Positions 1,020 to 45,061 of a DNA stretch of 64,000 nt are shown here, one piece after another. Each line of letters opens with the position of its first letter. Position 1 is the first letter of the stretch. The notes beneath the pieces were generated by a model that was given only the letters and a program-made list of their open reading frames with translations, was not told the origin of the DNA and did not search any database. The translations under genes and the position numbers were made by a program. The DNA comes from Cladocopium goreaui (Eukaryota > Sar > Dinophyceae > Suessiales > Symbiodiniaceae), in contig CAMXCT020000515.1 in assembly GCA_947184155.2 (NCBI GenBank), positions 25,001 to 89,000 on the forward strand, given 5' to 3'.

Positions 1020-1134
1020 TCTGGTTGGTAGTATACCTACCCCTCTGAAAAATCATGGAGTTCGTCAGTTGGGATCATGACATTCCCAACTGAATGGAAA
1101 GTCAATAAAATTCATGTTCCAAACCACCAACCAG
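1020..1134. mobile_element. Family-2 MITE-like element, copy 1
   Basis: About 115 bp bounded by inverted ends TCTGGTTGGT and ACCAACCAG. The inside (CCCCTCTGAAAAATCATGGAG, cut at 20 here as CCCTCTGAAAAATCATGGAG, then a CAACTGAATGGAAAGTCA stretch) matches the copy at 10052-10175 closely. It has no coding capacity. The ends carry CTG|GTTGGT and CAACCAG|, so a GT..AG intron could be excised. Further partial ends lie at 1201-1222 and 1299-1320. Confidence 0.65.
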
Positions 1135-2240: not shown

Positions 2241-2242
2241 GG

Positions 2243-2345
2243 GTTTGTCTGAAAATAGTGTACCCCATTTTCCCAATGGTTTTGCTGATCATTATCCCTA
2301 CTAAATGGCTATTTCATTGGGAGTATACCCTATTTTCAGACAAAC
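2243..2345. mobile_element. Family-3 MITE-like element, copy A
   Basis: 103 bp with inverted ends GTTTGTCTGAAAATA and TATTTTCAGACAAAC. The interior has a GCTGATCATTATCCC stretch that reappears in reverse complement at 2565-2668. TTAT occurs just outside both ends and may be a target duplication. The ends hold T|GTCTGA and TTTTCAG|AC, again a possible GT..AG pair. Confidence 0.65.
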
Positions 2346-2399
2346 TCTTATCAGACCGGAAGGGTTTCATACGATGGTGGTGGAGTCTCTACGCCAAAT

Positions 2400-2459
2400 C
2401 TGAGGTTCGAGGCCGGAAATCGCGATGATCACCTGATATCGCCTGAACCTTCAATTGGG
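2400..2459 (-). CDS. Possible exon fragment after family-1 copy 1
   Basis: On the minus strand the sequence directly after the 3' splice signal of the family-1 copy at 2460-2568 stays open in the same phase used by other copies, and reads EGTQLKVQAISGDHRDFRP before an in-frame TAG near 2390. It may belong to the same minus-strand gene as 2749-3039. Only about 20 codons support it, so confidence is low. Confidence 0.25.
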
Positions 2460-2568
2460 TACCTTCTGGTAAACTAACAAAAAACTATGGAAAATCACCA
2501 TTTTTAATGGGAAAACTCACTATAAATGGCTATTTTCAATAGTTTTTTGTATGTTTACCAGAGGGTAT
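2460..2568. mobile_element. Family-1 introner-like element, copy 1
   Basis: 109 bp with ends GTACCTTCTGGTAAAC and GTTTACCAGAGGGTAT. The inside is an imperfect palindrome (AACTATGGAAAATCACC / GGCTATTTTCAATAGTT). It is joined directly to family-3 copy B, and the pair is flanked by an 11-bp direct repeat AACCTTCAATT at 2446-2456 and 2666-2676. Confidence 0.8.
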
Positions 2569-2668
2569 GTCTGAAAATGGGGTATACTCCCAATGAAATA
2601 GCCATTTAGTAGGGATAATGATCAGCAAAAGCATTGGGTGTAGGGGTTTAGCCTATTTTCAGACAAAC
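2565..2668. mobile_element. Family-3 MITE-like element, copy B (inverted)
   Basis: Reverse complement of the copy at 2243-2345 over most of its length, ending TATTTTCAGACAAAC. Its left end GTATGTCTGAAAAT shares its first four bases with the right end of family-1 copy 1, so one element inserted at the edge of the other or both derive from one composite. Confidence 0.7.
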
Positions 2669-2748
2669 CTTCAATTATTGGTGAAGTGGCATGCAGCCCA
2701 GATTCCTGTGATCAGAAGACATCCAAGCAAAGAGCATCTTCAAAGTCT

Positions 2749-3039
2749 TTACTTCCAAAGCAACAGTTGTTTGTTCCACAAAAAACTACACCCAGTAACC
2801 ATGTTACCCTCTGGTAATTTAACATAGCTATGGAAAGATCCACCATTTTCAATGGGAAAATCCACTATTTCTATGGCCATTTCCAATAGCAAACTGTTAG
2901 TTTACCAGGCTCAAAACTGCACAGCCCCACCCCCCACCCAGCCCAGCGGTCCCTATGCGTCTTCTCGCCCCACGCTTTGGTAACGGCTTCCATATTCTGG
3001 CGCACGCCCCGGTTGGTCCAACCGCTACCAACGAAGGAC
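2749..3039 (-). CDS. Two exons of an unknown protein, split by family-1 copy 2
   Basis: Minus-strand exon 2906-3039 (134 nt) has a GC-rich reading frame (..SGWTNRGVRQNMEAVTKAWG..) in a region where the flanks are AT-rich. It ends GAGCCTG|GTAAAC exactly at the edge of a family-1 element. The 95-nt intron 2811-2905 ends TTACCAG, and the frame continues in phase 1 as EGNMVTGCSFLWNKQLLLWK to TAA at 2749-2751. The upstream border (GCGAG|GTCC) is a guess. No domain was recognised. The second exon may have a further donor before the stop. Confidence 0.5.
2804..2909. mobile_element. Family-1 introner-like element, copy 2 (acts as intron 2811-2905)
   Basis: Left end TTACCCTCTGGTAATTTAAC is intact. 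The right end has decayed to TTAGTTTACCAGGCTC. The interior is the family palindrome (ATAGCTATGGAAAG .. CCATTTCCAATAGC). It lies precisely between two open minus-strand frames, with GT and AG at the expected places. Confidence 0.8.
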
Positions 3040-3094
3040 CTCGCGGCTCGGGGTCAGGATTCTCGGGGGCCCACATAAACATGATTAAAATGTA

Positions 3095-3195
3095 TGTTTA
3101 TTATATATATATATGTATATGAAAGTATATGATATATATATATATATAAATATATGTATATTATATATAATATATATATATATATGTGTGTACAA
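3095..3195. repeat. (TA)n microsatellite
   Basis: About 100 bp of TATATA with occasional G, ending in a short TG run. Confidence 0.9.
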
Positions 3196-3535
3196 TTGTG
3201 TACATATGTGCAGCAATAGTTAATCGCGTTTCTTCATCTTAGGTATTGATGGGAAACTGGTGAATATCTGAAACTGCCAGTTTCAAGACCAGGATCTGCA
3301 TTTAACTTGCAAGTAGTATACATTACTTCAAACAAGATGAACCAACAAGGCTGGCAGTGCTCGTAGAATCTGGTTGGATGAATTGTTCGTGGGATTTAAC
3401 ATGACTTAGTGAATGATAACCAGTGAACTAACATAGATCTTCCCTGAATTTCAGTTCTATTCACAAACCTAAAAGTAGCAACTTGCAGCCAACTACGGGG
3501 ATGACTCCCTGCAATTCCCATCATTCCGGGAGTGT
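3196..3535. other. No gene recognised
   Basis: Unique-looking AT-rich sequence without a convincing frame or repeat. Confidence 0.4.
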
Positions 3536-3539
3536 AAAG

Positions 3540-4372
3540 TTCAGAGTGTGGAGAAAGTGTAGATTGCGCAGTGTGAAGTGTAAAGTGTGAAGTGTAGAGT
3601 GTGGAGTGTCAAATGTAAAGTGTGGAGTGTGGAGCGCAAAGTGTAAAGTGTGGAGTGTAAAGTGTAGTGTGTGGAGTGTAAAGTGTAGAGTGTGAAGTGT
3701 AAAGTGTAGAGTGTAGAGGATGGAGTGCGTGGAGTAAAGTGCACCGTGTAATGTGTAATGTGCGAAGTGTAAAGTGTAAAGCGTAGAGTGTAGAGTGTGG
3801 AGTGTAAAGTGTGGAGTGTGAAGTGTAAAATTAGAGTGTGGAGTGCAAAGTGTAAAGTGTAGAGTGTGGGGTGTCAAGTGGAAAGTGTGAAGTATGAAGT
3901 GTAAAGTGCAAAGTGTGGAGTGAGTGTGGAGTGAGTGTGGAGTGAGTGTGGAGTGAGTGTGGAGTGAGTGTGGAGTGAGTGTGGAGTGAGTGTGGAGTGA
4001 GTGTGGAGTGAGTGTGGAGTGAGTGTGGAGTGTAAAGTGTAAAGTGCAAAGTGTAAAGTGGAGAGTGTAAAGTGTAGTGCGCGGAGTGTCAAGTGTAAAG
4101 CGTGAAATGTAAATGTAAAAGTGTAAAGTGTAGAAGAGTGTACAGTGTCAAGTGTAAAGTGTAGAGTGTGGAGAGTAGAGTGTAGAGTGTGGAGTGTAAC
4201 GCGTAAAGTGTAGAGTGTGGAGAGTAGAGTGTAGAGTGTGGAGTGTAAAGTGTAGAGTGTAGAGCGTGGAGTGTGGAGTGTATATAAAGTGTAGAGTGTA
4301 GTGCAGAGTGTAAACTGTAGAGTGTGGAGTGTCATGTGTAAAGTGTAGAGTGTAGAGTGTAGAGTGTCATAA
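3540..4372. repeat. AGTGTAAAG / AGTGTGGAG minisatellite
   Basis: More than 800 bp of degenerate 9-11 bp units (GTGTAAAGTGTAGAGTGTGG). A homogeneous core of a 12-bp unit GAGTGAGTGTGG repeats perfectly from about 3917 to 4026. Because the units lack stop codons on the minus strand, several overlapping minus-strand frames of 60-300 codons (TLHFTLHTPHSTLYT type) are open. I read these as artefacts, not genes. Confidence 0.9.
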
Positions 4373-4375
4373 AAT

Positions 4376-4625
4376 GCCACCCCTGCCACGTAATTTGCAC
4401 GTTGTCGCCACTTGACGCAGCCCTGACAATGGGACTCGCAAAAAACACACAACACGGCACGTCTAAAGTGCTGGGCCTGCCACGCAAAATGATGATGGAG
4501 GTCTCCGAAGTGCTGGGCCTGCCACGAAAAATGAACCTCATCTTTTGAAAACGATGCAAAAAAAGTATGGCGCCTGTCACACAAAACGAGGATGTCACGA
4601 AGTGCCACGCCTGCCACGCAAAACG
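4376..4625 (-). repeat. Cluster of GCGTGGCAGGCG modules
   Basis: On the minus strand the word TTTTGCGTGGCAGGCG or close variants occurs about five times at 30-90 bp spacing (for example near 4476-4492, 4516-4531 and 4606-4624). Similar clusters lie at 26446-26760 and 40190-40350. Confidence 0.6.
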
Positions 4626-4629
4626 ATGC

Positions 4630-5640
4630 TACGCGACGTTTGAAACTTCCAAAAGCAGCACTCCCCAGAGGCACGGCCATAAGGCCCTCACGCGGACACT
4701 TGCAAACGGTTGCGGACGGGTTGCGTATGGTTGCGGACGGTTGCGCAACGTCTGGCGAACACACCCTCAACCCCTAGACCCCCAGAGTGAAACGGGAACC
4801 CTTGCTACACATGCGGGAAAAATATTTCAGAATTTTCCAACCTGAAATCAGGCTTCACTGTGGGCTCGTTATCCCTACTCACCATCATTCCAGTGAGGTT
4901 GCAGTGAAGTCATTATAATATAATCTATCCAGGTACATCCAGATAATACTGTGTTGAAAACTTGGGGACAAAGTGCTAGTAAACTTACCGTGATTGGAAA
5001 ACCCTGACATCCGCACTGCTTGCTATGCTGCAACCAGATGGTTTTAAAAATGGCCGGCCATGTCACAGGGTGCCCATTTGGCAAGCTACTCTGCCATCGA
5101 ACGTGCAAAAGCAAAATTCACTGGTCGGCAGCTTTCTTGGCGATACTTCAGTTAAAGTATGTTAAAATCATATCAAATGATGATTATGTTGAATCATATC
5201 AAATCAAAATTAATACTGGACTCCAACTTTCAATGCTTCAACACTCCAATAAATTGGGCCAGTCAAGCAACATGTCTGGCACCTCAAATCAGCCCCAGCC
5301 ATAGATGCCGAAAATACCTTGGAAACCTGGAAACAATGGGGAAAAATGTCATGAAACCCCTGGGTTTGTCCCATAGTTTCCCATCTTTATCAGAAAAATG
5401 TCATGAAACCATCCTGGAAACACGACTTCCCGTCTTTTTTGGGGGCTCCGTCGGATCCGTGATACCCACGAAGCATCCCTTAGCCCGCCGCCAAGTCACA
5501 CGAAGTATCTCCGGGACGCTATGGGTATGTCTGGCAGAGGCGTTTCTGGCTGCTTCAGTAGTGGCACTGGAATGTGCCCAAAACCTGGAGCAGGTGTTCA
5601 CTGGAAAATCCATCGATAAAAACTTGAAACCCTGCTGTGA
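4630..5640. other. No gene recognised
   Basis: Mixed sequence with overlapping open frames of up to 160 codons on both strands but no domain, no codon pattern and no clear splice borders. A tandem GTTGCGGACGG word occurs around 4710-4745. Confidence 0.35.
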
Positions 5641-5643
5641 AGT

Positions 5644-6056
5644 TTAAAAAACCCTGGAAAAACCCAATGAATTGATGTCAACATTTGCTGTTGACGAACG
5701 GATATGGAAAATCATTGGTTTCACAAGATCATCAAGGGGGCGGGCTTCCTGGATGGAAAGTATGGGGAGATCGTCTTTGGGGATAGAACTTGGCTTCATG
5801 GCAATGAGGATAGCAACAACAGAAGTGAAAGTGCCAAGTCTTGATACTGGGATACCCTCTGGTAATTTAACATAGCTATTGAAAATGGCCATTTATAGTG
5901 GATTTTCCCATTAAAAATGGTGATTTTCCATTGCTATGTTAGTTTACCAGAGGGTATGAATTACAACTTGAGGATATTAAATGGATCCAATGGGGGTGTA
6001 TATGAATATAACTTGAGGATAAGCCAAGTCTTGAGGATCTTAAATGGGGGTTGAAT
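5644..6056. CDS. Ambiguous exon pair around family-1 copy 3
   Basis: On the plus strand a frame opening at 5672 runs into the element as ..VPSLDTGIPS and, after removal of GT..AG, continues in phase 1 as EGMNYNLRILNGSNGG to a TGA near 6056. On the minus strand the sequence from 5858 to 5644 is also open (..SSIPKDDLPILSIQEARP..) right after the element's 3' splice signal, but the upstream side has an in-frame TAA 12 nt before the donor. Plus is therefore slightly favoured. No domain was recognised. Confidence 0.3.
5852..5957. mobile_element. Family-1 introner-like element, copy 3
   Basis: 106 bp, the cleanest copy, with perfect 14-bp inverted ends ATACCCTCTGGTAA and TTACCAGAGGGTAT. The interior pairs AACATAGCTATTGAAAATGG with CCATTGCTATGTT. 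No open frame of its own. Confidence 0.9.
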
Positions 6057-6100
6057 GGTGGTGTAATGGCTGGTGTGGATGTTCAACCACTAAGATCATG

Positions 6101-6206
6101 ATACTCCCTGGCAAATTAACATAGACCCTGAAAATCACCAATGTTTAATGGAAACTAGTCTTCCAACCCCTATCTGCCAGGGTCTATGTTAATATACCAG
6201 AGGGTA
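6101..6206. mobile_element. Family-1-related element, copy 4 (divergent)
   Basis: Ends ATACTCCCTGGCAAAT and ATATACCAGAGGGTAG. The left donor has become GC (CTG|GCAAAT) and the interior has diverged (CATAGACCCTGAAAATCACC). After its right end one plus-strand frame is open for about 50 codons (RSCELSMPRGNPRLGCERW..). Confidence 0.65.
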
Positions 6207-6207
6207 G

Positions 6208-7000
6208 ATCTTGTGAACTGTCAATGCCGAGAGGAAATCCGCGACTCGGATGTGAACGTTGGCGTTGCCTGGTGACCTATGGTCCAAAAAATCTACGAAT
6301 GGCCAACCAAATGCCGTTTCAATGTTTGGGGATGGGTCAAAACCCTGGTACCTAGTGAACCTCAATTCATCGCTGGGATTTATGGATGTTCATCCCATTA
6401 AAAATGGTATTGATAGGTATTGATCCATACCCATTTAACAATCACAGAAAAGGCGCCATATTACATGTCAGCAATCCCAGAAAAAGGGAACCATAATTTT
6501 TGAGCCAGACCCAAAAGATCTAAAAGGGGCTCCCATGTGATTTGCAACTCAAATATACAAAAAAAATGCTGTGATGAAGGAACTATTTCAAAGTTGCCAT
6601 GTTTCAGCTAGCTTAGCAGGTGACTTTGTACAGTATCAGCTAGCTCTCGGCCAATTTAGTTCGATCATTCGCCTACTCCGAACCGTTAAAGTCGACCAAT
6701 TTAACAGAATTGTGTCAAATCTCATTGGGACGCCGTTGGATCAGGAAGTCAAATAAGTTGACCAAAAGCAAGGCCAACCCCAATGGGACGCCGATGTACG
6801 ACAAACTCTGTTTTGGCAAGTTTTGCTGTGTGAAAGATGAGGAAACACCTTGTGGACGCAACTCCCAAAACATCTTCAAAGTGGTATTAGATACAACAAA
6901 AAACACTCATGTCATATTGGGACGCCAGTGATTCACCACATGTAGATTGCAAGTGATCACAAGAAAAGCTGCTTTTACCTGTTGGATTCTGTAGGGACAC
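6208..7000. other. No gene recognised
   Basis: Short open frames only. No repeat border seen apart from family-1 copy 4 to the left. Confidence 0.35.
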
Positions 7001-7012
7001 GGTTAGCTGTTT

Positions 7013-7057
7013 CGAACGACGTCCGAACGACGTCCGAACGACGTATCGAACGACGTC
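7013..7057. repeat. Four copies of an 11-bp CGAACGACGTC repeat
   Basis: CGAACGACGTC repeats four times in tandem, the last preceded by an extra AT. The unit contains the palindrome GACGTC. Confidence 0.8.
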
Positions 7058-7080
7058 AAAGGGTATCAAAACCCAGACCT

Positions 7081-7155
7081 TTGGATTCATTTGCTTTCAT
7101 GTTCCTTTCATTCTCCTTTCATTTCCTCTCATTTCCTTTCATTGTCCTTTCATGC
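7081..7155. repeat. CATTTCCTTT pentamer-type repeat
   Basis: Pyrimidine-rich run of TTTC/CATTTC words about 70 bp long. Confidence 0.7.
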
Positions 7156-7159
7156 GATC

Positions 7160-8689
7160 ATGAAAACATGGTATACACACAACCTAAATACGAAGTCACA
7201 CAAAGTCGCTGGCAATGCAAAACCCACGAAAAAGTCAAAAAACTGAAAAAAACTAACTTGCTAGACACAAGCTGGACGCAACATTGGTCAACTTTAGAAG
7301 TTGCGTGCGCGCAGCTGGGACGCTCATTTCATTGAAATCGTTCAACTCAGAGTAGAAACATGGTGATTTTCCACAGCTATGTACCAAATGCACCAAATTA
7401 TCATAGGGTGTAATGTGGTAGACCCAATATGACCCAATAAACCCCAAGTCATCACCATTTTTGGTGGGATTTCAACCATCCCCGAGTCAGCCACTGGGCA
7501 GATGACGCCAAGGCGCCACCCGCGCTGAAAACAAAGAGGTTCGGCATGTCACTTTGCGGAAACGTCGACATCCTGAGCCACGTTGCTGCCGTGGTTTTGC
7601 CCTAGATCTCGGTGCGGATTGTCCTTGTCATCAAGTGATTGCAATGGTTCTTAGATCATCCAGCCATGGGTCGAATATCTAACAGAACAACAATTAATGA
7701 CTAACAAAAATCTGGGCAAATGACAAGTCAAACGCAGTCTTTTCGGTTGTGTTTTGAAAAGCACAATGGCTGTCCTCTGTTTTGGTTGTTTGTGGTACAC
7801 TTTCAGCCCAAACTCTTGACCCAGCTTGGCCCAGCTTGATCCGAAAACGCCCAGGCGCTTGGCTCCCCCGAAAACGCCCAGGTCATGCTGGGAGACCGTG
7901 ACGTACAGCACCGTCTTCCGCATCTTCTGCTTCAACATACTCGGAGTGCGGGGATCGATATGTGGGGCAGGCCGATTGTCCAGAAACCAGCCCTAGATTT
8001 TCGGATGGCCTTCCCAGAAATCGGAGGTCGACCATCAACAATTGGAGGATTATTATTGGGTTAGACTACATCAAAATACCAGGGATACTGGAAAAACACT
8101 CGTGACCAAGCTGGGATTGGTTGGGGCCATTTTTTGGACATGCAAAAAAAGTTGCATCAGTTGCGATCCTTTGGAAGGCACAGTTCAAAAAACGTTCGTG
8201 GGTCCCTTATGTTTTCTTTGTACTACAGGAAGCCATGGGGCAGAAATTACTCGCGAAAGTGGACTCAACTCTGCGACTCCCGTTGAAGTACTTGGCATTG
8301 CAAACACATTGACGGTTATTGAACGGCTGGAATTTCTTTCAAGGTTACCAGCTTTGCTGCCGCAACCTATCAGCAAATTAATAGCCCTATATTCTAGCGA
8401 GGCTACCATTTGAAAAGCAAATCACTGCTGGGTACATAGATCGATCAATCAACCAGGATTTATTCATCTAGGGTTGACCTTAACAGCTTCATGCTTCAAC
8501 ATCCCACACCAGTGTGGCCCCACCCCATGGTTCATATCTATGGCTAGCTCACCCAGTTATACCCAGTTATAATGTGTTATATCATGTTACATCATACTAA
8601 GTATGATAGTTTCTGCCGATTCTGATCTTTATGTCCATGACTTAGATAGAGCCCCTGCATCTGTCACTACATCGATAGAACTATTTCCT
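7160..8689. other. No gene assigned
   Basis: Two stretches have mild coding character: minus strand 7651-7938 (..QHDLGVFGGAKRLGVFGSS..) and plus strand about 8223-8413 (..VEVLGIANTLTVIERLEFL..). Neither has a recognisable domain or matched splice sites, so neither is called. Confidence 0.3.
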
Positions 8690-8886
8690 TATACATATAT
8701 GCATATATATATATAATTACATATTATCATAATATACATAGACATATATTATCATATATCATCATATATCATCATATATCATATATCTATATCATATATC
8801 ATCATATATATATCATATATATATATATCATATATCATCATATATCATCATATATTATCATATATCATCATATTAATCATATATCT
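8690..8886. repeat. (ATATCATC)n AT-rich repeat
   Basis: Nearly 200 bp of CATATATCAT words. Confidence 0.9.
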
Positions 8887-9700
8887 AGTTCACCTAGTCA
8901 TATATCTGTGTTCGACCTGTGAACTCAAGGTCCGCCAGGTCCGCCAGGTCACTCGATCATCCCTGCAGGATATGCCCTTTCTCTCACCGCCAGGTCGACC
9001 CAGGGGACGAAGATCGGGATGAACCTCGGGTGGTACAAAAACCACGGGAGACCCCAAAGTCTCCAAGAACAAACATCGAAAAATGGAAACCAAAAGGAAA
9101 ATGATCCAACATGATCCGAAAAATGTGGAGTCTGGTTGGTTTAAACATGTTTAAACACTCTTTTTCAGTACTTCGGACTGAAGACAACCACCAGGTTTCA
9201 TGAGGATTCAAGAAAAAAAGCGGCTCGATGGCGGCCCGATGGTTTTATACAAAAACCTATTGATCCCAACAGATCTTGAATATTGACCCAGCTATGACGA
9301 TCTGACATTTTAATGATCGTCCGAAACAAGAAACAAAGGAAAACGGAAAATGGACCAAACAACTCTGCAGAAACGGGCCAAAGACATCTCGCAACCTGGT
9401 GCCTTCTGCGCGTTGAAACCACTTTGAAGTAAAGTTCTTGATCCAATAATTCCTGAGCAATCTGGCCATGGGAACCATGGGACTGAAACCCAGGATGCCA
9501 AATTTCCTGCAGAGGCTTCCGAGACATTATGCTGATGAGGTGCGGGGGAGTCCCGTTATTAAAAAAACATCTTATATATCATCCGACCAAAATTGAATAC
9601 ATTATATCTTTGCAAAAAATAAATAAATAAAAAACATATCACGTCCATCAATCATCCAAGATCATCACATCCATCCCGTTCCACTGTACATTCCACCCTT
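8887..9700. other. No gene recognised
   Basis: Open frames up to 109 codons on the minus strand at 9198-9527 without domain or coding pattern. A short AGGTCCGCC repeat lies at 8930-8950. Confidence 0.35.
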
Positions 9701-9707
9701 CTAACAC

Positions 9708-9815
9708 CGTCGTAGCTCAGCTTCTCGATCCAAGGTCCGGTGTATCCAGCCCAGTGATGCGCCGGAAAGTCCATGGACACGAAGCTGCTGATGTTGTCGT
9801 AGATCTGCCACAGAT
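9708..9815 (-). CDS. Internal exon of an unknown protein
   Basis: A 108-nt minus-strand exon bordered by TTGGTAG| and GACG|GTGTTAG, reading ..DLWQIYDNISSFVSMDFPAH.. then ..GYTGPWIEKLSYD. Third positions are GC-rich. It is flanked by family-2 repeat ends, so those lie in introns or between genes. No family was recognised. The upstream neighbour at 10216-10443 may belong to another gene because it ends in a stop. Confidence 0.5.
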
Positions 9816-9876
9816 CTACCAACAAAGATGGGTTGGCTTTTTGCAAGTGACCATCATGGGGTAGAAAATAGGAGAT

Positions 9877-10050
9877 CTGGTTGGTGGTTGACCTACCAAT
9901 AGTCATGGTTAATGATGGTTTAATATGATGGTTAATGATGGTTAATATATGGTTACTGATGATGGTTGGTGGTTGACCTACCCGAAAAATATGGTGATTG
10001 TATGGTTTAATATGGTGCAAAATCCCATTGATGATCATACTTAGTTACTT
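9877..10050. repeat. Partial family-2 repeats
   Basis: TCTGGTTGGTGGTTGACCTACC occurs at about 9877 and again, shortened, near 9965, separated by ATGGTTAATGATGG words. These look like incomplete copies of the element at 10052-10175. Confidence 0.5.
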
Positions 10051-10051
10051 A

Positions 10052-10175
10052 TCTGGTTGGTGGTTGAGCCACCAACCCCTCTGAAAAATCATGGAGTGAA
10101 AGTCAGTTGGGCTGATGAACTTGCCAACTGAATGGAAAGTCATTCAAAATCCCATGGTTCCAGTCACCAACCAGA
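10052..10175. mobile_element. Family-2 MITE-like element, copy 2
   Basis: 124 bp with perfect 11-bp inverted ends TCTGGTTGGTG and CACCAACCAGA. The interior (CCCTCTGAAAAATCATGGAG, GTCAGTTGGG, CCAACTGAATGGAAAGTCA) matches copy 1. No coding capacity. GT and AG sit at the same relative positions as in family 1. Confidence 0.75.
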
Positions 10176-10215
10176 GATTACCTCATCTTCCCCATTCAAA
10201 TGACCATCCATTGGG

Positions 10216-10443
10216 CTATGCCCAAGGGGCACATTTTTCATGACACAATCCGCATCCGCATCGATCCACCATGGCATAGCAGCATAGCACCTCCTGGAAA
10301 TGTTCCTCCGCATCGTCGGGATAGGTGGCTTCCAGTTGTGGATTGGTGAGGCGCATGCATGCCAAAGCCTGCGTTGAAACGCACGAAGCGTCCGGTGATG
10401 ACTTACAGTGTATGCATGGATCTGGAATACATTGTATATTCAA
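10216..10443 (-). CDS. Terminal exon of an unknown Cys-rich protein
   Basis: Minus-strand frame open from about 10443 to TAG at 10216-10218. The C-terminal part reads ..NPQLEATYPDDAEEHFQEV.. followed by ..CGCGLCHEKCAPWA, rich in cysteine. A GTAAGT donor-like word at 10401-10406 and a CAACGCAG acceptor at 10369 would define a 38-nt intron, but the frame is also open without splicing. No metal-binding family was recognised. Confidence 0.45.
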   Translation of the reverse strand: MNIQCIPDPCIHCKSSPDASCVSTQALACMRLTNPQLEATYPDDAEEHFQEVLCCYAMVDRCGCGLCHEKCAPWA

Positions 10444-10560
10444 TACTATATATATAGTTATAGTTATATATATATATGATATACTTGAAATATGAACATG
10501 CAGATATCAATATATGTCAATATCATTGATATGATATGTTTAATGTTATTGTTTCTTATT
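10440..10560. repeat. AT-rich repeat
   Basis: TATATATAGTTATAG words and a TA run. Confidence 0.8.
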
Positions 10561-10972
10561 GTAGATTTGCAAAAACATCTGATTCATCGCAACCCCCCAG
10601 CCCCAGAACGAACTAGTTCAATCTTTCTGGGGACCCATGGGGACCCAACCCGCACCAGTTGGGAACCATTCATTCTATAGGTATTCAGTATTCACCAAAG
10701 GTTGCAAAAACGTCCCAAACATGGAAAGCCGAATCCAATATTGCTATAGTATGCTATAGTAAATGGGTAACATAACATGGTCATACATGGTCATACATAC
10801 TCAATTTACCCAAGTTTTGACCATAACGCACATCATAAATCTACACATCTACAAGGTGATGCCACCCATTTTTAATTTGGCTTCTAATCCTCATTGGCTA
10901 TATAGATATTCTGATATTCTGGATCAAAATTGAGTACCCCGAGGTACCAAGGATGGTTATTGCTAAAGATCA

Positions 10973-11921
10973 TCAAAGGTGCAGTCCCATGGCAGTCTAC
11001 AAAAAATTGACCCATCGCCATATTAATCTACCTTGTCCTTGTGGCGATTCAACTATACTGGACACTGGGGATATAATGAAAATTATTATTGTTATTATTA
11101 TTCGAAAGTCATCTATAAATGGGGATATATACTTATATATATATATATGTAATACTTATAGATATTTAATGATATTTATATATAATATATCTACCAATAA
11201 ACCCCAAAGAAATTGGAGTTTGTTGGTTCCCAACAGCTCCCTCACCTTCTCCACAGTGTCCACGGAGGAGAGGAAATTGGGATCTATGACCTGAAACGCT
11301 GCTGTTCAATGGCCATGCCAACATCCGATTTTCATGGGATTTTCGACATGAGAAATAACCCACGTGTGGAAAAAATATGGCGATTTATGGGATTTCTTGA
11401 CATTCTGAATAGCAGAAAATCACCAACAAACCAGAAAATGAGTGAAAATTGAAAAACTTTGAGGTATCCCCCCTTTTTACGCTGCCAAAAATAGCACGAG
11501 CATGTTCCTGACTCTTTGCCGGAGCCGATGGGGCCTGGTGGGAAACGTGTTGGCGGATCAACTCACTGGGTGCCTCTTAACGAGTCTGAACATTGATCTG
11601 ACCATGCGTACCCACCATGTATATCTATGATTTATGATCATCAAAAACCAGTGGTTCTGGTGTACTATGGTCCTATGCTTTACTATGCTATGAACAAGGT
11701 ACAGATGATTCAAGGTTCCAAGATCTCCAAGGTACAGAAGCACTCTCTGTCGTCCGTGTCGTCGTCGTTGTGGTCGTGGTCGTTTCGCTGGTTGCTGTGC
11801 TCGTCGTGGCTTCGGCCACGAAGGCTGTGGGCATGATGGGCAGCGCAGCGTCGGGCGTCAGTGGTGCTGTGGTCTCCGACCAGAAGGAGTCCTTCCAGCG
11901 GCTGATGTAAACCCAAGATGT
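10973..11921 (-). CDS. Multi-exon gene with Thr-rich linker, function unknown
   Basis: Exon 11736-11921 (186 nt, phase 0 to 0) follows a good acceptor (GGCTGTTGCAG|ACATCT) and reads TSWVYISRWKDSFWSETT.. then a Thr-rich linker (..SETTTTTTTTTRTTESAS) before |GTACCT. Exon 11246-11290 (45 nt, phase 0 to 0) reads VIDPNFLSSVDTVEK between CGTTTCAG| and |GTGAGG. Two smaller phase-0 exons are possible at 11032-11052 (LNRHKDK) and 10973-10996 (TAMGLHL then TGA). Thr-rich linkers are common in dinoflagellate surface and secreted proteins, but no signal peptide or domain is visible. The opposite strand of the first exon is also open as a Val-rich frame, which I rejected. Confidence 0.5.
11130..11195. repeat. 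TA-rich microsatellite
   Basis: Short TATATAT run within a presumed intron or spacer. Confidence 0.75.
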
Positions 11922-12300
11922 CTGCAACAGCCAATGGATTACTTTGTCACAAGTTTGAGACGTTGAATGTCAATGCTGTTGAGGCTTGAATCATAACATG
12001 CAACAGGGGTACATGGGTGTCTTAAGTTGGGTAATTTCGGTTGCCATCCCACGTTCGTTTGACAAAGTCACATGGGGTTTGACAAAAAAATGAGGATATC
12101 CCAAAATCATTGGTTGATTGCGAAAACTGATTATTTTCTCAACTATGAGATGGAATGGGGTCTTCCCCATCTCAAACAAGCTATAGCAACCCCCAATAAA
12201 GATAGGAAAAAGAAAAAATACCCTTCTTCTAGAATCAAATTTTACAAATGTGACTTTTCTGCATCCTTTTGTGGTTTTGCTTCAACCTTGGATCCACCCC

Positions 12301-12976
12301 TTAATCCCCATCTGTCGTAACGTTGGCCTTCAAATTCATGAGGTCGTCCAGATCTTCCAATCCCTGGCGCTTCATGAAGCCCCAGTGGGTGAGTAGAATG
12401 AAGGACAGGAGGAACAGGCCACAGATTCCTGGGATTTCTGCGCTGATCAAAAGGATCAAAAGCTGAGTTTTGTCATGGGAAAATGGATCAAAAGGTGACT
12501 TTAGATGGGAAATTCACACGGAAACGAAAATCTCTTGGGGCCAGGAAAGAAAAACATAGCATACTCCCGGTGTCCGAAATCGGTGAATGTACCAAGGTGG
12601 GAACTTTTCAAAAAATCACAGCGTTCTCCAAGAAATCCAAGAGTCCAAGGGAGCAACAACTGCAGCGGCACCACATCCTCAGATGGTTTTGTCGGGGAAT
12701 GAGCCCTTTAGTTACTGCGAAGAACCATTCGAAAGATGATCAAAGTTGAGCAAATTATGAGGGAGATCCACCCTTTTTGGACAGATATCAGATGAACAAG
12801 CTGTAGAATGTAGAATCTCTTTTAGATGTCGGTTTTACTGCTTGGTGGAGAACCATCTGGTATGCATCTGGTGAATTCGGATGATCTAGAGACAGTTTGA
12901 ACAAATCCTAACCGCAAATACCTTTGCATCCAATGAAGAAAACATGCTGACCTCAAAAATCATCGCAATGCCAACG
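12301..12976 (-). CDS. 3' end of a membrane protein gene, three exons
   Basis: Three minus-strand exons with consistent phases: 12922-12976 (VGIAMIFEVSMFSSLDAK, CTGCAG| and AAAG|GTATTT), 12605-12677 (DVVPLQLLLPWTLGFLGER..) and 12301-12437 (..IPGICGLFLLSFILLTHW.. then a polar tail ..EDLDDLMNLK.. to TAA). Introns are 244 and 167 nt. The last exon contains one clear hydrophobic segment of about 20 residues followed by KRQG, which fits a C-terminal transmembrane helix with a cytosolic acidic tail. This suggests a transporter or channel, but no family was recognised and the N-terminal exons were not found. Confidence 0.55.
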
Positions 12977-13235
12977 CTGCAGTGTGTAGGAACCCCACAT
13001 GTTTGTTGGTCAAATGCCCATGTTGGTTTGTGGATATCCACGTGTTGACTGGATAAATCGAAGTTTTTGCTGTTTGACATCCCCATATCTGTTGAATCTG
13101 TTGATTGACATCTCCACTCTCGGTCAATCTCCACATTTTTCCGGATTATAAACCCTCCAATAATGAATTTCCCATCAAAACTGCCATCTAGTTCGGGGGG
13201 TTCCACTGCCAGAGGGAAAATCCCCTAAAAATCAG

Positions 13236-13805
13236 TGGAGGCTTTACTGCGAAATCATCTACCCTCTGGTAAACATACAAAAAGCTATGGAAAATCACCA
13301 TGCTTTTAATGGGAAAATCCACTATTAATGGCCATTTTCAATAGCTATTTTGACATAACCAGAGGGTATAAATGGTGGATTTTTTCCCGCCACCACCTTT
13401 GAGGACACCAGGTTTCGATGCCACTTCCTCCGGGACATCCTCATCCACACCATCGACCTCCACGGGTTTGGAGCGGGGCTGGGACTCTCCGTTCTCCACC
13501 TATCGGAGCCGCCAGGTGAAGGGGGTTGGTCCTACCTATACGACATCACCAATACGAAGAGATACCCTCTGGTAATGACTAACATAGCTATTAAAATTGA
13601 CCATTTATAGTGGATTTACTCATTGAAAATGGTGATTTTCCATAGTTATGTTAGTTTACCAGAGGGTATCAGCATCAACAATGGGGGGTGAGCAAAATTG
13701 TTTTTTTTTTTTTTTCTGGGGGTATCCGCAGACTTGACCAATGAACCATGGGATTTTTTGACATCAAACTTGGAGATATTGGATTCTCTATATATGGTGT
13801 TCTAA
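13236..13805 (+). CDS. 3' end of a plus-strand gene whose introns are family-1 elements
   Basis: Exon 13363-13571 (209 nt) is open in one GC3-rich plus frame (..RFRCHFLRDILIHTIDLHG.. and ..SEPPGEGGWSYLYDITNTK..), and all three minus frames are closed. It lies exactly between the splice signals of two family-1 elements (introns 13269-13362, 94 nt, and 13572-13662, 91 nt). Downstream, exon 13663-13687 (25 nt) ends at |GTGAGC. A 44-nt intron with a poly-T tract ends ATCCGCAG at 13731. Exon 13732-13805 (DLTNEPWDFLTSNLEI..) runs to TAA. Phases agree throughout. A possible upstream exon is 13236-13268 (VEALLRNHLPS). No domain was recognised. Confidence 0.6.
13260..13369. mobile_element. Family-1 introner-like element, copy 5 (intron 13269-13362)
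   Basis: Ends CTACCCTCTGGTAAACAT and TAACCAGAGGGTATA. Interior palindrome AGCTATGGAAAATCACC .. GGCCATTTTCAATAGCT. It lies directly upstream of exon 13363-13571. Confidence 0.85.
13562..13669. mobile_element. Family-1 introner-like element, copy 6 (intron 13572-13662)
   Basis: 108 bp with ends ATACCCTCTGGTAATG and TTTACCAGAGGGTAT. Downstream of exon 13363-13571. The interior has the family palindrome (AACATAGCTATTAAAA .. CCATAGTTATGTT). Confidence 0.87.
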
Positions 13806-13809
13806 TGTC

Positions 13810-14430
13810 AAAACTGTCAGCCATCCACCTCAGTGTTTGCCATGCCTAAGCGGCTGAGTGGCTATTTCAGCCCTTCGCTGTTGAAACCGCAGAACGATGT
13901 GAATATTTCTGAATTCTTGGGGGGCTCCAAGTTATCATTGAGTTATTTGTCATTCTCAACGGGCAAATCTATGTGTTTTTGTGTAATCACCCCAATTTCA
14001 AGACAAATCCATATTGTACCTTAAGATCATTGAGTCACCATGTCTTGCGCTGACTCCAAGTGCCACACTACTTTACAATACTCAAGCCGATTGCAGAATC
14101 ACATTCTCAAACCAAATTCCCGCATGGTTTGCGATGAAGATCCATCAGCCACATCTGTTTTTTGGGGGGCCGCGGCCGGAATCTCAAATTCCCAAGGGTG
14201 TGGCTCAAAAGAATTGACCCCGAGATCGTGGCAAAAATTAAACGTCTATAAATTACCCAAACATCCCCACAGATATTCCCAAAATTAGTTATTCTCCATC
14301 TACTCTGGATGATAACTCTTGCCTATTCTAATGCACCTGTACATGCAATTAGTGTCTCTACCACTATCCCCAAACATCTCCCCAGTTATTGCCATGCCAA
14401 AATCAGATCACAGTGAACTCCCCCCATTTT
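13810..14430. other. No gene recognised
   Basis: Short plus-strand open frames (13833-14024, 14014-14288) lack coding pattern and splice support. Confidence 0.35.
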
Positions 14431-14437
14431 TCTCGAG

Positions 14438-14692
14438 TCAGATCCAAGCGGCCAAAAGCCCCAAATCTTCATCGCCAGTCCCAACTTCTTCGTCTTCGAG
14501 GGCGTCGCCAAACACGTCCGCGCGCGGCTCAGGCATGGGCCCAGGCTAAATGAGTTGCATCATCTGGGGAATGTCCGATGGTTTTTAAGGGAATCTTTGC
14601 CGGAAACTCAGTGTCTTTTTTGGCTCATCTCTGACCATCACATGGGGGATGTCCAGTAGATGCTGTTGAAGAACCTCAATGGTTGCTTGGTC
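14438..14692 (-). CDS. One or two exons of an unknown acidic protein
   Basis: Exon-like frame 14585-14692 (36 codons) follows CCGTAG| and reads DQATIEVLQQHLLDIPHVMV.. then ..TLSFRQRFP and TAA. Downstream, 14438-14545 (36 codons) follows CATTTAG| and reads ..PEPRADVFGDALEDEEVGTG.. ..LGLLAAWI and TGA. Both are phase 0 and have coding-type third positions. Whether they are two exons of one gene (with a donor inside the first) or two gene ends cannot be settled. No domain was recognised. Confidence 0.45.
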
Positions 14693-14699
14693 CTACGGC

Positions 14700-15070
14700 G
14701 AGATTCGTGTTGAAGTTGAGGGTATGATTTTTCTTGTCCTTTCAGTAGGCCACGGGGGCATTCACGAAGTTCATACATTCAAAATATTCAAATTGACCTT
14801 TGACTTCTGGGATGTTGAACTGAGTGTTAAACCATAAAATGGTCACACACATATTGACCTCAAAGGTAGGTTCGAAAAAAAACATGCCCTGACCATGTCC
14901 CATGAAGTGATTGGAAATCACAACGCGTAAAGCCAGAGCTTTCGGAGACGCGCAAGTGGTAAAAAGGCGGAGAGGTGGACCTGGTTGTGGTCAGTGACAG
15001 GCGACAGCCGCCTTATAAGTGGGATATGACAAGGATATACATTACATGATATACATCAATATAATTCAAT
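14700..15070. other. No gene assigned
   Basis: A short minus-strand stretch near 14750-14785 (MNFVNAPVAY) could be an upstream exon of the 14438-14692 gene with a non-GT donor. Nothing else was seen. Confidence 0.3.
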
Positions 15071-15074
15071 ATAT

Positions 15075-15200
15075 GGGGTTTTCCTAAAATGGGGCGTACC
15101 CCCCCCAAATCATCCATTTTAGATTAGGATGTTCATGGATTTTCCATGAAATCAACCATCCAGCTATTGAGGGCGGGTAGCTCCCATTTATGGAAACCCC
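15075..15200. mobile_element. Family-4 MITE-like element, copy 1
   Basis: 126 bp with inverted ends GGGGTTTTCCTAAAATGGG and CCCATTTATGGAAACCCC. It shares ends and an AAATCATCCATTTTA interior with the copy at 49228-49340. Unlike families 1-3 its ends do not place an AG at the right border. Confidence 0.6.
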
Positions 15201-15444
15201 TATCAGTAGGTCCGTTGCGGATCACGGTTGCTTCAAGATCCGAGCGAGCGAACAAAGGGCACCTGTCTGTTGGGATACTCCAAGTGAGAAATATCAGTAG
15301 ATAAATGTGGGAGATGTTCCATCATCCAGTAGATAAATATGAGAAATATCATGAGAAATATCATACAGTTGTTTCATCATACAGTGTTTAATCAACAACG
15401 TTTCGGACCTTTGTGGGCGCGCGCCGACATGTTTACTTTTTCAT

Positions 15445-15570
15445 TCATATCTTCAGCCATGCGTTGTCATCTGACACTTTCCCAAATTTTTTGGGATCGC
15501 ATCCAACCTGAGACATTCTGGCTTGGCGGTAGAAAGCCATGGCCTGCAACACTGTTTCTAATCCGGGAGA
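15445..15570 (-). CDS. Possible terminal exon, function unknown
   Basis: Minus-strand frame with coding-type codons reading ..ETVLQAMAFYRQARMSQVG.. ..KKFGKVSDDNAWLKI to TGA at 15445-15447. The upstream part (to 15702) is open too but AT-rich. No domain was recognised. Confidence 0.4.
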   Translation of the reverse strand, partial: SPGLETVLQAMAFYRQARMSQVGCDPKKFGKVSDDNAWLKI

Positions 15571-15879
15571 ATTTAATTTTTTTTGCATCGCCAAAGGAAT
15601 TATGTGAGACTGGGATGGCTGCATTCGACCAATTTGGTTGACACGTCTCAGAGATCGCTTGACCCGCGAAAACTCTGCTTCGCTGCTATTATCTCCTCCC
15701 ACGATTTTGGCAATTGTTTTCTATGGGCTCATCACGCAAGCTGGCTTCTTCATGGATGCACTCCGAGTTAGCATTTTTTGTTGCTACTCTGCAAAGCCAA
15801 CACAAAAAGGCAGCAGCATAAACACAAGTCGACTCAAAAACCATGATCAAATTCATGAATAAAAATTCTTATACCATAA

Positions 15880-16690
15880 CATCACGCGTGAGTGCAAGTG
15901 CAAGAGAAGATCTTACAACGTAACATCACGCGTGTGTGCAAGTGCAAGAGAAGATCTTACAACGTAACATCACGCGTGTGTACAAGTGCAAGAGAAGATC
16001 TTACAACGTAACATCACGCGCGTGTGCAAGTGCAAGAGAAGATCTTACAACGTAACATCACGCGTGTGTACAAGTGCAAGAGAAGATCTTACAACGTAAC
16101 ATCACGCGTGTGTGCAAGTGCAAGAGAAGATCTTACAACGTAACATCACGCGTGTGTGCAAGTGCAAGAGAAGATCTTACAACGTAACATCACGTGTGTG
16201 TGCAAGTGCAAGAGAAGATCTTACAACGTAACATCACGCGTGTGTGCATGTGCAAGAGAAGATCTTACAACGTAACATCACGTGTGTGTGCAAGTGCAAG
16301 AGAAGATCTTACAACGTAACATCACGTGTGTGTGCAAGTGCAAGAGAAGATCTTACAACGTAACATCACGCGTGTGTGCAAGTGCAAGAGAAGATCTTAC
16401 AACGTAACATCACGCGTGTGTGCAAGTGCAAGAGAAGATTTACAACGTAACATCACGCGTGTGTGCAAGTGCCAGAGCAGATCTTACAACGTAACATCAC
16501 GCGTGTGTGCCAAGTGCAAGGAGAAGATCTTACAACGTAACATCACGCGTGTGTGCAAGTGCAAGAGAAGATCTTACAACGTAACATCACGCGTGTGTGC
16601 AAGTGCAAGAGAAGATCTTACAACGTAACATCACGCGTGTGTGCAAGTGCAAGAGAAGATCTTACAACGTAACATCACGCGTGTGTGAGT
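15880..16690. repeat. 44-bp satellite, about 18 copies
   Basis: A 44-bp unit (contains AAGATCTTACAACGTAACAT then CACGCGTGTGTGCAAGTG) repeats head to tail with few changes, mostly CGCG/CGTG and TGCA/TACA. Copies near 16434-16525 carry single-base indels and a CCAGAGCAG variant. The 100-codon open frame over it is a repeat artefact. Confidence 0.95.
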
Positions 16691-16742
16691 GTGCCCCCCC
16701 CACCCCCCCTGTTCCCCACCCCAAAAATAATAACATGTCATG

Positions 16743-16995
16743 CGGGCACAACTTCTAACTGACGGGCACAACTTCTAACTGACGGGCACAACTTCTAACT
16801 GACGGGCACAACTTCTAAGTGACGGGCACAACTTCTAACTGACGGGCACAACTTCTAAGTGACGGGCACAACTTCTAACTGACGGGCACAACTTCTAACT
16901 GACGGGCACAACTTCTAACTGACGGGCACAACTTCGAACTGACGGGCACAACTTCGAACTGACGGGGACAACTTCTGACTAACGGACACAACTTC
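16743..16995. repeat. 20-bp satellite, about 12 copies
   Basis: GACGGGCACAACTTCTAACT repeats in tandem with variants AAGT, CGAACT and GGGGACA toward the right end. It is separated from the 44-bp satellite by a C-rich spacer. Confidence 0.95.
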
Positions 16996-17435
16996 AACGC
17001 AGCACCACGAAACACTGCCCACAGTGAGCGAAATGAAGATAAACGCGCCCTGACAGGCAGTTTTACGCTCTCCCCCGTGCGCGCCGACAGGGTTCCGGAA
17101 GGATCAACAAGGAACATTGGTGGGATATGTTAAAAAACGCCGATGTTCCTTGATGGTTCAACATGTTGAGGGGCTGGTCAGCTTCTCCAGTTTGAGGGCA
17201 GGAGTTGAATGGGCAGATTACTGGGAATATCTCTAGGTCTTTAGCCCTAGAAACTAGAAACACCGTGAAAATCATGTGTGAATCAGCTCATTTGCCAAGA
17301 GCTCACTACCTTCTGGAATCATAGATCATCCTACTAGATGATTGGGAAACTCTAAGTAGCTCCGCAATGCTCCCCATTTTTTTTATAGGAACTATGAAAA
17401 CCCCTAGCTCCTTAGCTCCCTCCTAACCACTGGAT
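16996..17435. other. No gene recognised
   Basis: A few short frames only. Confidence 0.35.
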
Positions 17436-17439
17436 AGCT

Positions 17440-17587
17440 AATGTCTTGAAAGTCAATGTGATCCACAAAGTCACAGAACGATAGAACCGTTTCCGCTTTG
17501 CTGGTCGCGAAATCAAGCGGCAAGAAATCCATCATCCATTCGGTTGCAACAAACGTCTGAAGTTGGAACCCAAACCCATGACGGATC
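17440..17587 (-). CDS. Possible exon, function unknown
   Basis: Minus-strand frame after CCTAAAAG| reading ..GFGFQLQTFVATEWMMDFLP.. and ..TVLSFCDFVDHIDFQDI, with a coding-type residue mix. The donor side is not clear. No domain was recognised. Confidence 0.4.
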
Positions 17588-18401
17588 CTTTTAGGTGCTG
17601 CGATATTAATGGTGCTCCATGGATCCCATCTATATACCCCCTTTATGTTAGCATTAAAATACCATATGGTAACATTGACCATCTATATATACCCCCTATC
17701 TATGTTAGCATTTTTCTATACCAGCACCGTTTGGATCCGCCATGGGAAATCAAACCCGACACACTTCATTTCTGACTTCTCGACAGCTCCCGCCTCGGAT
17801 CACGCTGAAAGGATCGCGCCGGGATCATCGGAAACCGATCGGAAAGCGACGGGAAACCGGGCCTGGTCAGTGGTTCAGCAACCCATGGGATTCTGGGAGG
17901 ATTCCCCTGGGGCATGGGGCATCATTCAACATCAGATTCTCAACGTCTACGGCTTTGCAAGACTCAACTGTTGGGATATCAAGGCCTTGGCAACCAACTT
18001 TCTTATACTTTCTTGCCGCTTTTGCCGTCGTTTTCTCACATCAAATAGTACAGACATAACCTGGTTGTCATGTTGGATCTTTTGTGGTTCTGTGTGATGA
18101 ATGGCCCTGGCTAGTCATGTGCTTCCCGCCCGCAAGAGGCACCCCCATGTGACCCTCTTGCCATCGTCACCCACCTCTGTTCCGCTTCGGACTTCGGCCA
18201 ACATACCTTTTCGATCTCAAAAGTTGATGCCTCGGCGTATCTGGGTCCCACTCAAAGTTGTTCTTCCACAGTGTCTCGACTTAGGGTCCGAGTGGTTTCT
18301 AGAATTCTGACCAGTCGACGAAACTTCGGCTCCATTTGCTGTATGCTGTGACTACCAGCAGTCTGTGAGGTCTGGTTTCAATCAATCTGTGCTTTAAAAG
18401 A

Positions 18402-18663
18402 TGGGTGCAACCTCCTGTGTGAAGTGCCCCCTGGGCGATAGGTCTGTGTCTTCCCCCGCAGCGTCTCTCACTACAACATATTTACCCTCTGGTAATTTAA
18501 CATAGCTATTGAAAATGGCCATTGAAATAGTTGATTTACCCACTAAAAATGGTGATTTTCAACAGCTATGTTAGTTTACCAGAGGGTTATGTGTTCATTG
18601 TCCAAACTACTGCATTCAGCTACATCTTGGTAAAGGGTCATGCGAAATATGTCATGTTGAGCT
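18402..18663 (+). CDS. Possible short gene split by family-1 copy 7
   Basis: From ATG at 18402 the plus frame reads MGATSCVKCPLGDRSVSS.. into the element (..TTTYLPS). If GT..AG is removed it continues in phase 1 as EGYVFIVQTTAFSYILVKG.. to TGA near 18663. In the duplicate at 44.6 kb the frame is broken by indels, so coding status is doubtful. Confidence 0.25.
18482..18588. mobile_element. Family-1 introner-like element, copy 7 (absent from duplicate)
   Basis: Ends TTACCCTCTGGTAATTT and GTTTACCAGAGGGTTAT. The paralogous sequence near 44680-44715 runs from CAACATATTT to TTGTTCATGGTCC without any element, so this is an insertion in A or a near-precise loss from B. Confidence 0.85.
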
Positions 18664-18728
18664 GATGGGATGTTCACTTGCTGTCAACATTCATCAACGC
18701 AAGGGGACGAATCGCCACAGCTTAAAAT

Positions 18729-20614
18729 CTATTTGCGGCTTGCGACCAAGCCATAGAACACGGCATACTGCGCCATCAATGGCACGGTTTCGTGCACAAA
18801 GCCAACTTCTTTGGCAAAACCATGTGCCATGAGCATTGCATTGATCCACTGGCCGATGTGGTCGGAATCGAAATCCCAGTCCCGCTGGTCCATCAAGGCA
18901 CGCCAAACGAAGTCAAAGGATGGACCATCTGTGATGCGAGGCTGTCGTGCGTGGAGAATGAAGCTGCGACCACCGTTGAAGGCGTCAAGCCACTTGGGAT
19001 CAGGAGTGCTGGAAGGAGGAGCTTCGGATGTCCTTGGATGATCGTGGACTTGACTTTCAAGGTAAACTTACGCCTTGAAAAAACAAGAAAATAAAGAAAT
19101 AATAGCTGATGGATATAATGCATGATTTAATTTTCAATAATGGTTTTGACTCTAGTATAGACAAACATAATCAAATTATCTGTCATTCTGACAGAATGCT
19201 CAAGAAAATAAATGGTCTTCCCATCTCAACCAGCTCAGCTTCCAATTGCCACCACAAGAGACATCAGCAATCTTTTGCCCAGCCACATTGCGGTAGAGAA
19301 ATTGACGACTTGAGACATCGAAGCGCCACTGTTCCCCGACCCAAATTGCATCTGGCGACTGACAGTTCTGTCCGTCCTCGTCGCAAACACCCACAAAGTC
19401 AAGGCTTTGCAACTTGCCGAGGCGGTCAAAACACATCACTGTGGCAGGCCCTTTGTATTCAACGCATAGGTCGTGGACAATTTCACCATTTCCATTTTCA
19501 GGACAAATGATGGGATCTCCCCGCGCAGAGAAGGACCAACTGCGGCGCCGCTCTGCTTCCAGCCTCTCGCGTGCCTCTCTTTCTTGCCGTGCTTTCTCCT
19601 CCAAACGTCTGCGTTCGGCTTCCAGCCTTCCACGTGCCTCTCGTTCTTGCCTCTCTGTCTCCTCCAAACGTCTGCGTTCGGCTTCCAGTTTCTTGCGTGC
19701 CTCTCGTTCTTCTCGCTCTGTCTCCTCTAGACGTCCGCGGGCCGCTTTTAGGTCAGCCTCTTTCTGCCGGCTCTCCTTCAAATTTTCTTTGAGCTGCTCA
19801 TGCTCTTTATCCAACTCCTCCTTCTCTTTCTCCAGCCGTGACAGATCAGCCTGAATGGACTCCTGATTCATCTTGCCACTCCTGCGAAGCTCTTCCACGC
19901 GTCTCCAACTGTCCTCTTGACTCTCCTCATGCTGCTTGTCCCAGTCCAGAAGCTGCATGAACTCCCGCAGCTGTGTCATGAATGGCTGCGCAGCATGCTG
20001 GATCCAGCCTGGAACACCTGGAAGATCCAAGAATGATCCACCATCAAGCAGGGATTTGTGAGTCAACCCGAGCCTGCCCAACGAGCGGGGCATTGCCAGC
20101 ATGAAGCCATTTTCAGCCCCATCCTTCAAGTGCTTCAAGTCCGCAGCCAGCTCTTCTTGGCTCCTGGATCAGCACTGGATCCAGTCGTTGTGACCCAATG
20201 TTCATGGCGTATCCAATGTAACGATTTGCAAAGTAGACTGAATACATGGATATAGACATATAGAAGAAGCATCCAGAAACAGTGACCTCCTTCCTACAAG
20301 AGCAAAACCATTGAAAGTGCATCCAGAAGCAGCGAGCCCTTTTCCTAAACATCCTAAACCGGTCCAAGGCTCACACGGGGATCTTTGCCATACAATGGCT
20401 CGTAGAAGTTAATGAAGTTCGCCGGAAGCTTCGTGCCAAACTCGTGCGATTGCACCACTGCCGCGGTTGCCAGCAAGACCCAATTCCTCGGCATGGTGTA
20501 AACATCCCTGGGGGCGGATACACCCAGATGTTTGAGTGCATGGGTTACACTCTCAAAGTGCATAAAGGATCCGAAAAAATCCCCAAGTCTGCCAGCTTGC
20601 ATGGCCGACATCAT
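18729..20614 (-). CDS. Coiled-coil protein gene, at least three exons
   Basis: Probable exons on the minus strand: 20375-20614 from ATG (..QAGRLGDFFGSFMHFESVTH.. ..FINFYEPLYGKDPR|GTGAGC), 19231-20163 (933 nt), and 18729-19008 (280 nt, ..FVWRALMDQRDWDFDSDHIG.. to TAG). The 222-nt intron 19009-19230 has CTG|GTTGAG and CTTCCAG|CACTCC, and its phases match. The junction between the first two exons is not resolved and may include another exon. The middle exon holds a long Glu/Arg/Lys-rich coiled coil of about 130 residues with three near-identical repeats (EREARERLEAERRRLEE type), followed by a globular part with cysteines (..CVEYKGPATVMCFDRLG..). No family was recognised. The duplicate at 44.8 kb retains only the last exon, in decayed form. 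Confidence 0.6.
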
Positions 20615-23390: not shown

Positions 23391-23395
23391 TTTGC

Positions 23396-45060: not shown

Positions 45061-45061
45061 G

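Follow-up and report, generated by a model that had tools for sequence, protein, structure and literature searches.

An abundant TA-flanked hairpin repeat in the dinoflagellate Cladocopium goreaui is probably a passenger transposon rather than an introner

Introduction

Can a short palindromic repeat turn itself into an intron wherever it lands in a gene? This question is raised by a stretch of 64,000 nucleotides from the dinoflagellate Cladocopium goreaui (contig CAMXCT020000515.1, or C515, positions 25,001 to 89,000; hereafter the window), in which an earlier note, made from the letters alone, described seven copies of a palindromic miniature inverted-repeat transposable element (MITE). Because its inverted ends give splice-like motifs on both strands, that note proposed that the family could be an introner, any insertion in a transcribed gene acting as an intron of about 90 nt in either orientation. 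Here, we examined this repeat in the window and in the whole assembly (1,165,616,438 bases in 6202 contigs). From sequence comparison, we consider it probable (roughly 0.88) that the repeat, which inserts at TA sites, is a non-autonomous MITE of the Tc1/mariner type, carried as a passenger rather than acting as an introner. A second inverted-repeat family found in the course of this work is, in contrast, likely to be an introner.

Results

The seven copies were all present in the window, with coordinates off by 1-2 bases at most (Table 1), and the description of the family as a palindromic MITE was borne out by the inverted ends as well as by single-strand folding, which gave z values from -4.06 to -11.48. 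A search of the window with ATACCCTCTGGTAA, allowing up to 3 mismatches, returned 17 matches, compared with 4.21 expected (100 shuffles, highest value 11). The ends said to be shared by all copies hold as a family resemblance but not as a uniform sequence: both 14-mer ends are exact only in 5852-5957 and 13562-13669, while the copies first placed at 2804-2909, 6101-6206, and 13260-13369 depart from them as listed in Table 1. The outermost A lies outside the element, and the repeat proper reads CCCTCTGG...CCAGAGGG, with TA on either side. Among paired copies with ends of at most 2 mismatches, none was listed past position 18586 of the window.

In the assembly, the repeat has the structure TA-CCCTCTGGTAA...TTACCAGAGGG-TA and forms a hairpin of about 100-110 bp. 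The exact 14-mer end occurs 18,690 + 18,835 times (reversed control, 1 + 4). The genome-wide search that the earlier note had suggested yielded 29,768 copies in which the 13-bp ends are both perfect and separated by 66-96 nt, compared with 0 for the reversed control. This number counts perfect-ended copies only; the total is probably higher, because paired copies (96, of 80-135 bp) outnumber exact 14-mers (59) in a 264 kb sample.

The flanks of the copies were then compared for a target duplication, using 115 pairs of this family and 34 pairs of the second family described below. The two sides agreed in 103 and 105 of the 115 pairs at the two TA positions, compared with 14-42 at the ten neighbouring positions tested. 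The target duplication is exactly TA and no longer. Our first sample comprised 105 pairs (some sharing an end), 83 of which had TA on both sides; 96 pairs of 80-135 bp were used further, 94 of them with full flanks. On contig C3, where 3 of the 20 sampled loci had no pair, the TA duplication was seen in 17 of 18 copies. Loci L001-L008 were excluded from these counts. On inspection of the window and of loci L009-L028, each arm of the repeat proved to be pieced together from short interchangeable modules, among them ACTAAC, TTTAAC, ACATAC, and GACTAAC, and the two arms of a single copy often carry different ones.

We next considered whether the ends could work as splice sites. As the earlier note had stated, CTG/GTAA and CCAG/AGGG can be read at the element ends on both strands. 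Given the TA duplication, however, a GT..AG removal at these ends leaves CCCTCTGAGGGTA (13 nt), and use of the next AG leaves 11 nt, so that a frameshift results with either acceptor. In 43 of 112 copies (34 of 94 in the first sample and 9 of 18 on C3), a reading frame ran through the putative splice without a stop; of 4000 random stretches drawn from the first-sample loci, 39.3% were open as well. The GC content of the flanks was 0.40, close to the 0.396 of the sample from contig C2. The sampled copies appear to be seated in AT-rich non-coding DNA, existing introns included.

A more direct view came from genes whose introns can be placed by protein homology. The kinesin domain (PF00225) gave 104 exon matches, from which ten loci (L053-L062) were taken first, followed by eight stretches with larger gaps (L063-L070). 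In the gene at L053, homology placed four introns: GC-AG of 236 nt, GA-AG of 236 nt, GC-AG of 157 nt, and GT-AG of 128 nt. A review describes introns with GC-AG and GA-AG borders for dinoflagellates (PMC11453091, in excerpt). The predicted spliced protein matched KIF3B (3b6u) with an E-value of 3.1e-80 in one alignment over residues 5-352, which crossed all four junctions. A MITE copy (the CTGGTTATG variant) lies inside the first of these introns, beginning 26 nt after the donor, with the acceptor 99 nt beyond the element. When this copy was spliced at its own ends, the kinesin protein was not restored. On this homology evidence, the copy is a passenger in a predicted intron whose splice sites lie outside the element, contrary to the proposal that any genic insertion would itself act as an intron of about 90 nt on either strand. 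Together with the frameshift and with flanks no more open than random sequence, it speaks against the proposed use of the ends as splice sites.

In L054-L062, adjacent exon matches are separated by 11 gaps, which are candidate introns, and no MITE copy was seen in them. Counting these 11 gaps and the four introns resolved in L053, none of the 15 kinesin introns or gaps is formed by the repeat. In L063-L070, the sole trace of the MITE was one degraded, one-ended copy in L069. The HECT domain gave 15 matches, which included no adjacent exon pairs and were left out of the comparison.

The kinesin gene at L053 also led to the second family. Its fourth intron (C3546:287420-287547) coincides exactly with an inverted-repeat element, AAGA/GTTT CTGGTTGGTG...CACCAACCAG/GTTTGAG, consisting of 124 nt plus the duplication GTTT. 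Removal of this element keeps the frame and restores the kinesin sequence INKS-LSALGNV (KSLSALGNV), the donor GT being supplied by the duplication and the acceptor AG by the inverted end. In 309 kb, this family has 36 pairs before the length limit is applied, some of them nested and three sharing one right end. Within the length range, an exact 4-bp duplication was present in 14 of 34 pairs, compared with a mean of 0.76 and a maximum of 4 over 2000 shuffles. Judged from this one gene, most other copies lying outside identified genes, the second family is likely an introner. The idea that this genome holds inverted-end introners may thus stand for the second family, by way of one kinesin intron placed by homology, but not for the TA-site family on which it was based. 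Among the listed matches of the second-family ends to paper texts, all titles concerned other subjects.

In the window itself, inspection suggested a gene on the minus strand in the region of copy 5 (Table 1), in which VLK is joined in frame to EIPGICGLFLL through a donor at 13397 and an acceptor at 12437. If the donor of the MITE copy were used with the acceptor at 12437 instead, a stop would follow in that frame. Copy 7 has a paralogous stretch, 44560-44870, that does not contain the element. The blocks that flank the element are 86-87% identical between the two stretches, compared with 80-96% for the other long blocks of the duplication, which fits non-coding DNA without being proof of it; the junction is too diverged to tell whether the site never held the element or keeps a remnant of it. 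For five other joined flanks, the spanning matches were weaker than that of copy 7.

Table 1 Coordinates of the repeats and predicted exons in the window
Feature	Position	Strand	Description
MITE copy 1 with TA flanks	2460..2567	.	element 2462-2565, 104 bp; left end CCTTCTGG; fold z -11.48
MITE copy 2	2805..2909	.	right end truncated after TTACCAG; fold z -4.06, 1 of 200 shuffles folds equally well
MITE copy 3	5853..5956	.	both ends exact, TA..TA, 100 bp
MITE copy 4	6102..6206	.	core subfamily ATAGACCCTG...CAGGGTCTAT; family ends in diverged form
MITE copy 5	13260..13368	.	terminal sequence AACCAGAGGG; in predicted intron, starting 30 nt downstream of the predicted minus-strand donor AAAG/GT
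MITE copy 6	13563..13668	.	exact at both ends; situated upstream of the minus-strand exon predicted to start at 13499
MITE copy 7	18483..18588	.	paralogous stretch 44560-44870 without element
Second family, introner-type ends	1021..1134	.	CTGGTTGGTA...CACCAACCAG; without exact 4-bp duplication
Second family, composite/nested	9877..10174	.	4-bp duplication AGAT at 9873-9876 and 10175-10178
Predicted exon	13397..13499	-	acceptor CGATAG/G, donor AAAG/GT; by inspection, no Pfam match
Predicted next exon	12328..12437	-	in-frame join with the 13397..13499 exon; GC donor; by inspection, no Pfam match

Discussion

Three features of the Tc1/mariner type, namely a TA duplication, a short element with terminal inverted repeats, and a high copy number, were found in the TA-site repeat. 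It shares with such MITEs the length of about 100 bp and the AT-rich hairpin, and differs from them in its mosaic arms and in that a transposase with the same ends was not found in the stretches examined. We take it to be of the Stowaway-like type. To judge from its sequence, the element is unremarkable in kind but exceptional in number, and no use of its splice-like ends was seen here. Among the matches listed, literature searches returned nothing on this family, and searches of paper texts with four 11-mers of its end gave no title on dinoflagellates or transposable elements. We propose that the element spread by duplicating the TA target dinucleotide to about 30,000 perfect-ended copies, presumably through a transposase working in trans on the terminal inverted repeat CCCTCTGGTAA, and that intronic copies would be removed together with the host introns as passengers. 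The resemblance of its ends to CTG/GTAA and CCAG/AGG would then be a by-product of the repeat sequence.

Several observations weigh against this reading. After exact excision, the frame was open in 50 of 112 copies (39 of 94 in the first sample and 11 of 18 on C3), and the C3 copies alone were more open both when spliced (9 of 18) and when excised (11 of 18), the random control being drawn from the first-sample loci only. The sampled copies are not a random set, since the C2 and C3 stretches were picked for exact ends and joined by the window, and the C2 stretches appear gene-poor. Just one intact copy was examined within a homology-resolved intron, and Pfam and PDB searches with the exon model of the window returned nothing significant. 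Furthermore, an autonomous partner with the MITE ends was not found among the fetched stretches matching the transposase domain DDE_3. The genome search for this domain gave 8 matches, of which the stretches of 5 were examined and 3 were left out (two on C4 and one on C3580).

How do the other explanations compare? The one put forward at the outset, an introner family in which a coding insertion yields an intron of about 90 nt from splice sites in the inverted ends, is suggested by the presence of CTG/GTAA and CCAG/AGG on both strands and by the inverted-end introners of Symbiodinium microadriaticum (PMC9860276, in excerpt), an architecture that the second family here fits. We nevertheless regard it as very unlikely, given the 13 or 11 nt left behind, the score of 0 among 15 kinesin introns or gaps, the passenger position of the L053 copy, and flanks no more open than random; in the excerpted text of PMC9860276, moreover, most families keep the length of the mRNA, and an example from Aureococcus (Fig. 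2F) adds 12 nt. Another account dispenses with transposition and sees a hairpin maintained by the host under selection, as a regulatory RNA or a cruciform. The arms do match better within a copy than between copies (identity 0.574, compared with a shuffled mean of 0.517 and a maximum of 0.569 over 500 shuffles), but a palindromic founder would also give such similarity, and transposition would be expected to give just what is seen, a precise TA duplication and an enormous number of copies inserted at many sites, which makes this account the least credible of all.

A milder form of the splicing idea is compatible with the passenger MITE and stands better, though it is still rather unlikely: in a minority of genic copies, the element may lend a cryptic donor or acceptor, creating alternative exons or new intron ends together with host sites. 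Intact copies carry, in both orientations, a GT resembling a donor and an AG resembling an acceptor, and with tens of thousands of copies some such use would be likely a priori; no case was seen, however, and in the single intron of the window that was examined, splicing from the MITE donor runs into a stop. It is more doubtful that some copies in transcribed genes have become introns, or supply alternative splice ends, in either orientation, whether within untranslated regions or with the help of a compensating splice site of the host. If this were true, the TA-site family may serve as a store of symmetrical splice signals out of which introners arise. We retain the passenger MITE as the best explanation.

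Comparison with described introners shows where the two families part. According to the excerpted text of Gozashti et al. 2022 (PMC9860276), introners of S. microadriaticum have terminal inverted repeats and a 4-bp target site duplication, the donor being derived from the duplication and the acceptor carried by the element. The TA-site MITE resembles them as a non-autonomous inverted-end DNA element in a dinoflagellate genome but differs in that it would shift the frame, whereas the second family, CTGGTTGGTG...CACCAACCAG, shares their architecture. In the excerpt of Farhat et al. 2021 (PMC7789003), the introner elements of Amoebophrya bear hairpin-forming inverted repeats where the intron begins and ends, and the exon/intron boundaries are overlapped by direct repeats of 3-5 nt; the MITE has similar hairpin-capable repeats, but the copy tested lies internal to an intron. 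The duplication appears to decide: 2 bp (TA) with the MITE ends would give a frameshift, while 4 bp with a carried acceptor would give a silent intron. Two kinds of inverted repeat can be told apart in one genome, an abundant TA-site MITE with splice-like ends, a passenger in the cases open to examination, and a less conspicuous family of which one copy is likely to form a frame-keeping intron. This may matter for introner counts in dinoflagellates, at least one of which (PMC10666404, in excerpt) searches the 30 bases around each intron end for direct repeats of 3-5 nt together with inverted repeats 8-20 nt long. The L053 copy of the MITE, 99 nt from the acceptor, would escape such a count, but other inverted-repeat elements close to an intron end could be swept into it unless their coincidence with the splice sites is demonstrated.

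Additional observations

Two kinds of DDE_3 match were considered as a partner of the MITE. Loci L029, L030, and L031 (contigs C2234, C1410, and C3954) hold a repeated element in which a DDE_3 transposase-like open reading frame (ORF; 397-415 aa where intact) stands beside a Rep-like ORF with the sequence GASASGKTEYAKS, presumably a Walker-type motif. This element is apparently virus- or transposon-derived and looks unlike the MITE. It received no support as the partner, the stretches of 4.5-5 kb taken around it, which may not span the whole element, holding only two-mismatch look-alikes of the ends. The best DDE_3 match, L032 on contig C1 (7,377,000 bases), was dropped as probably bacterial; it likewise showed no good copy of the ends. 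The one 5.3 kb stretch inspected there has 51% GC and bacterial-looking ORFs, and C1 may be a bacterial chromosome that was retained in the assembly.

The GC content of the window is 0.46, and the excerpt of PMC11114475 gives a genome GC content of 45.8% for the S2 lineages of Symbiodiniaceae. By eye, a palindromic repeat, GTTTGTCTGAAAATAG...CTATTTTCAGACAAAC, flanks copy 1 of the MITE on both sides (window 2240-2670). Copy 7 lies in a diverged duplication of the window, 18010-23858 and 44173-47175, with long blocks 80-96% identical; the 18010-23858 half contains a TIR-domain-like ORF (PF13676, E-value 3e-4, which does not reach the curated cut-off), and the other half has an ORF resembling it. 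Finally, the segment at 41289-43950 has the look of a copia-type polyprotein by eye, and two ORFs tested there gave no Pfam match.

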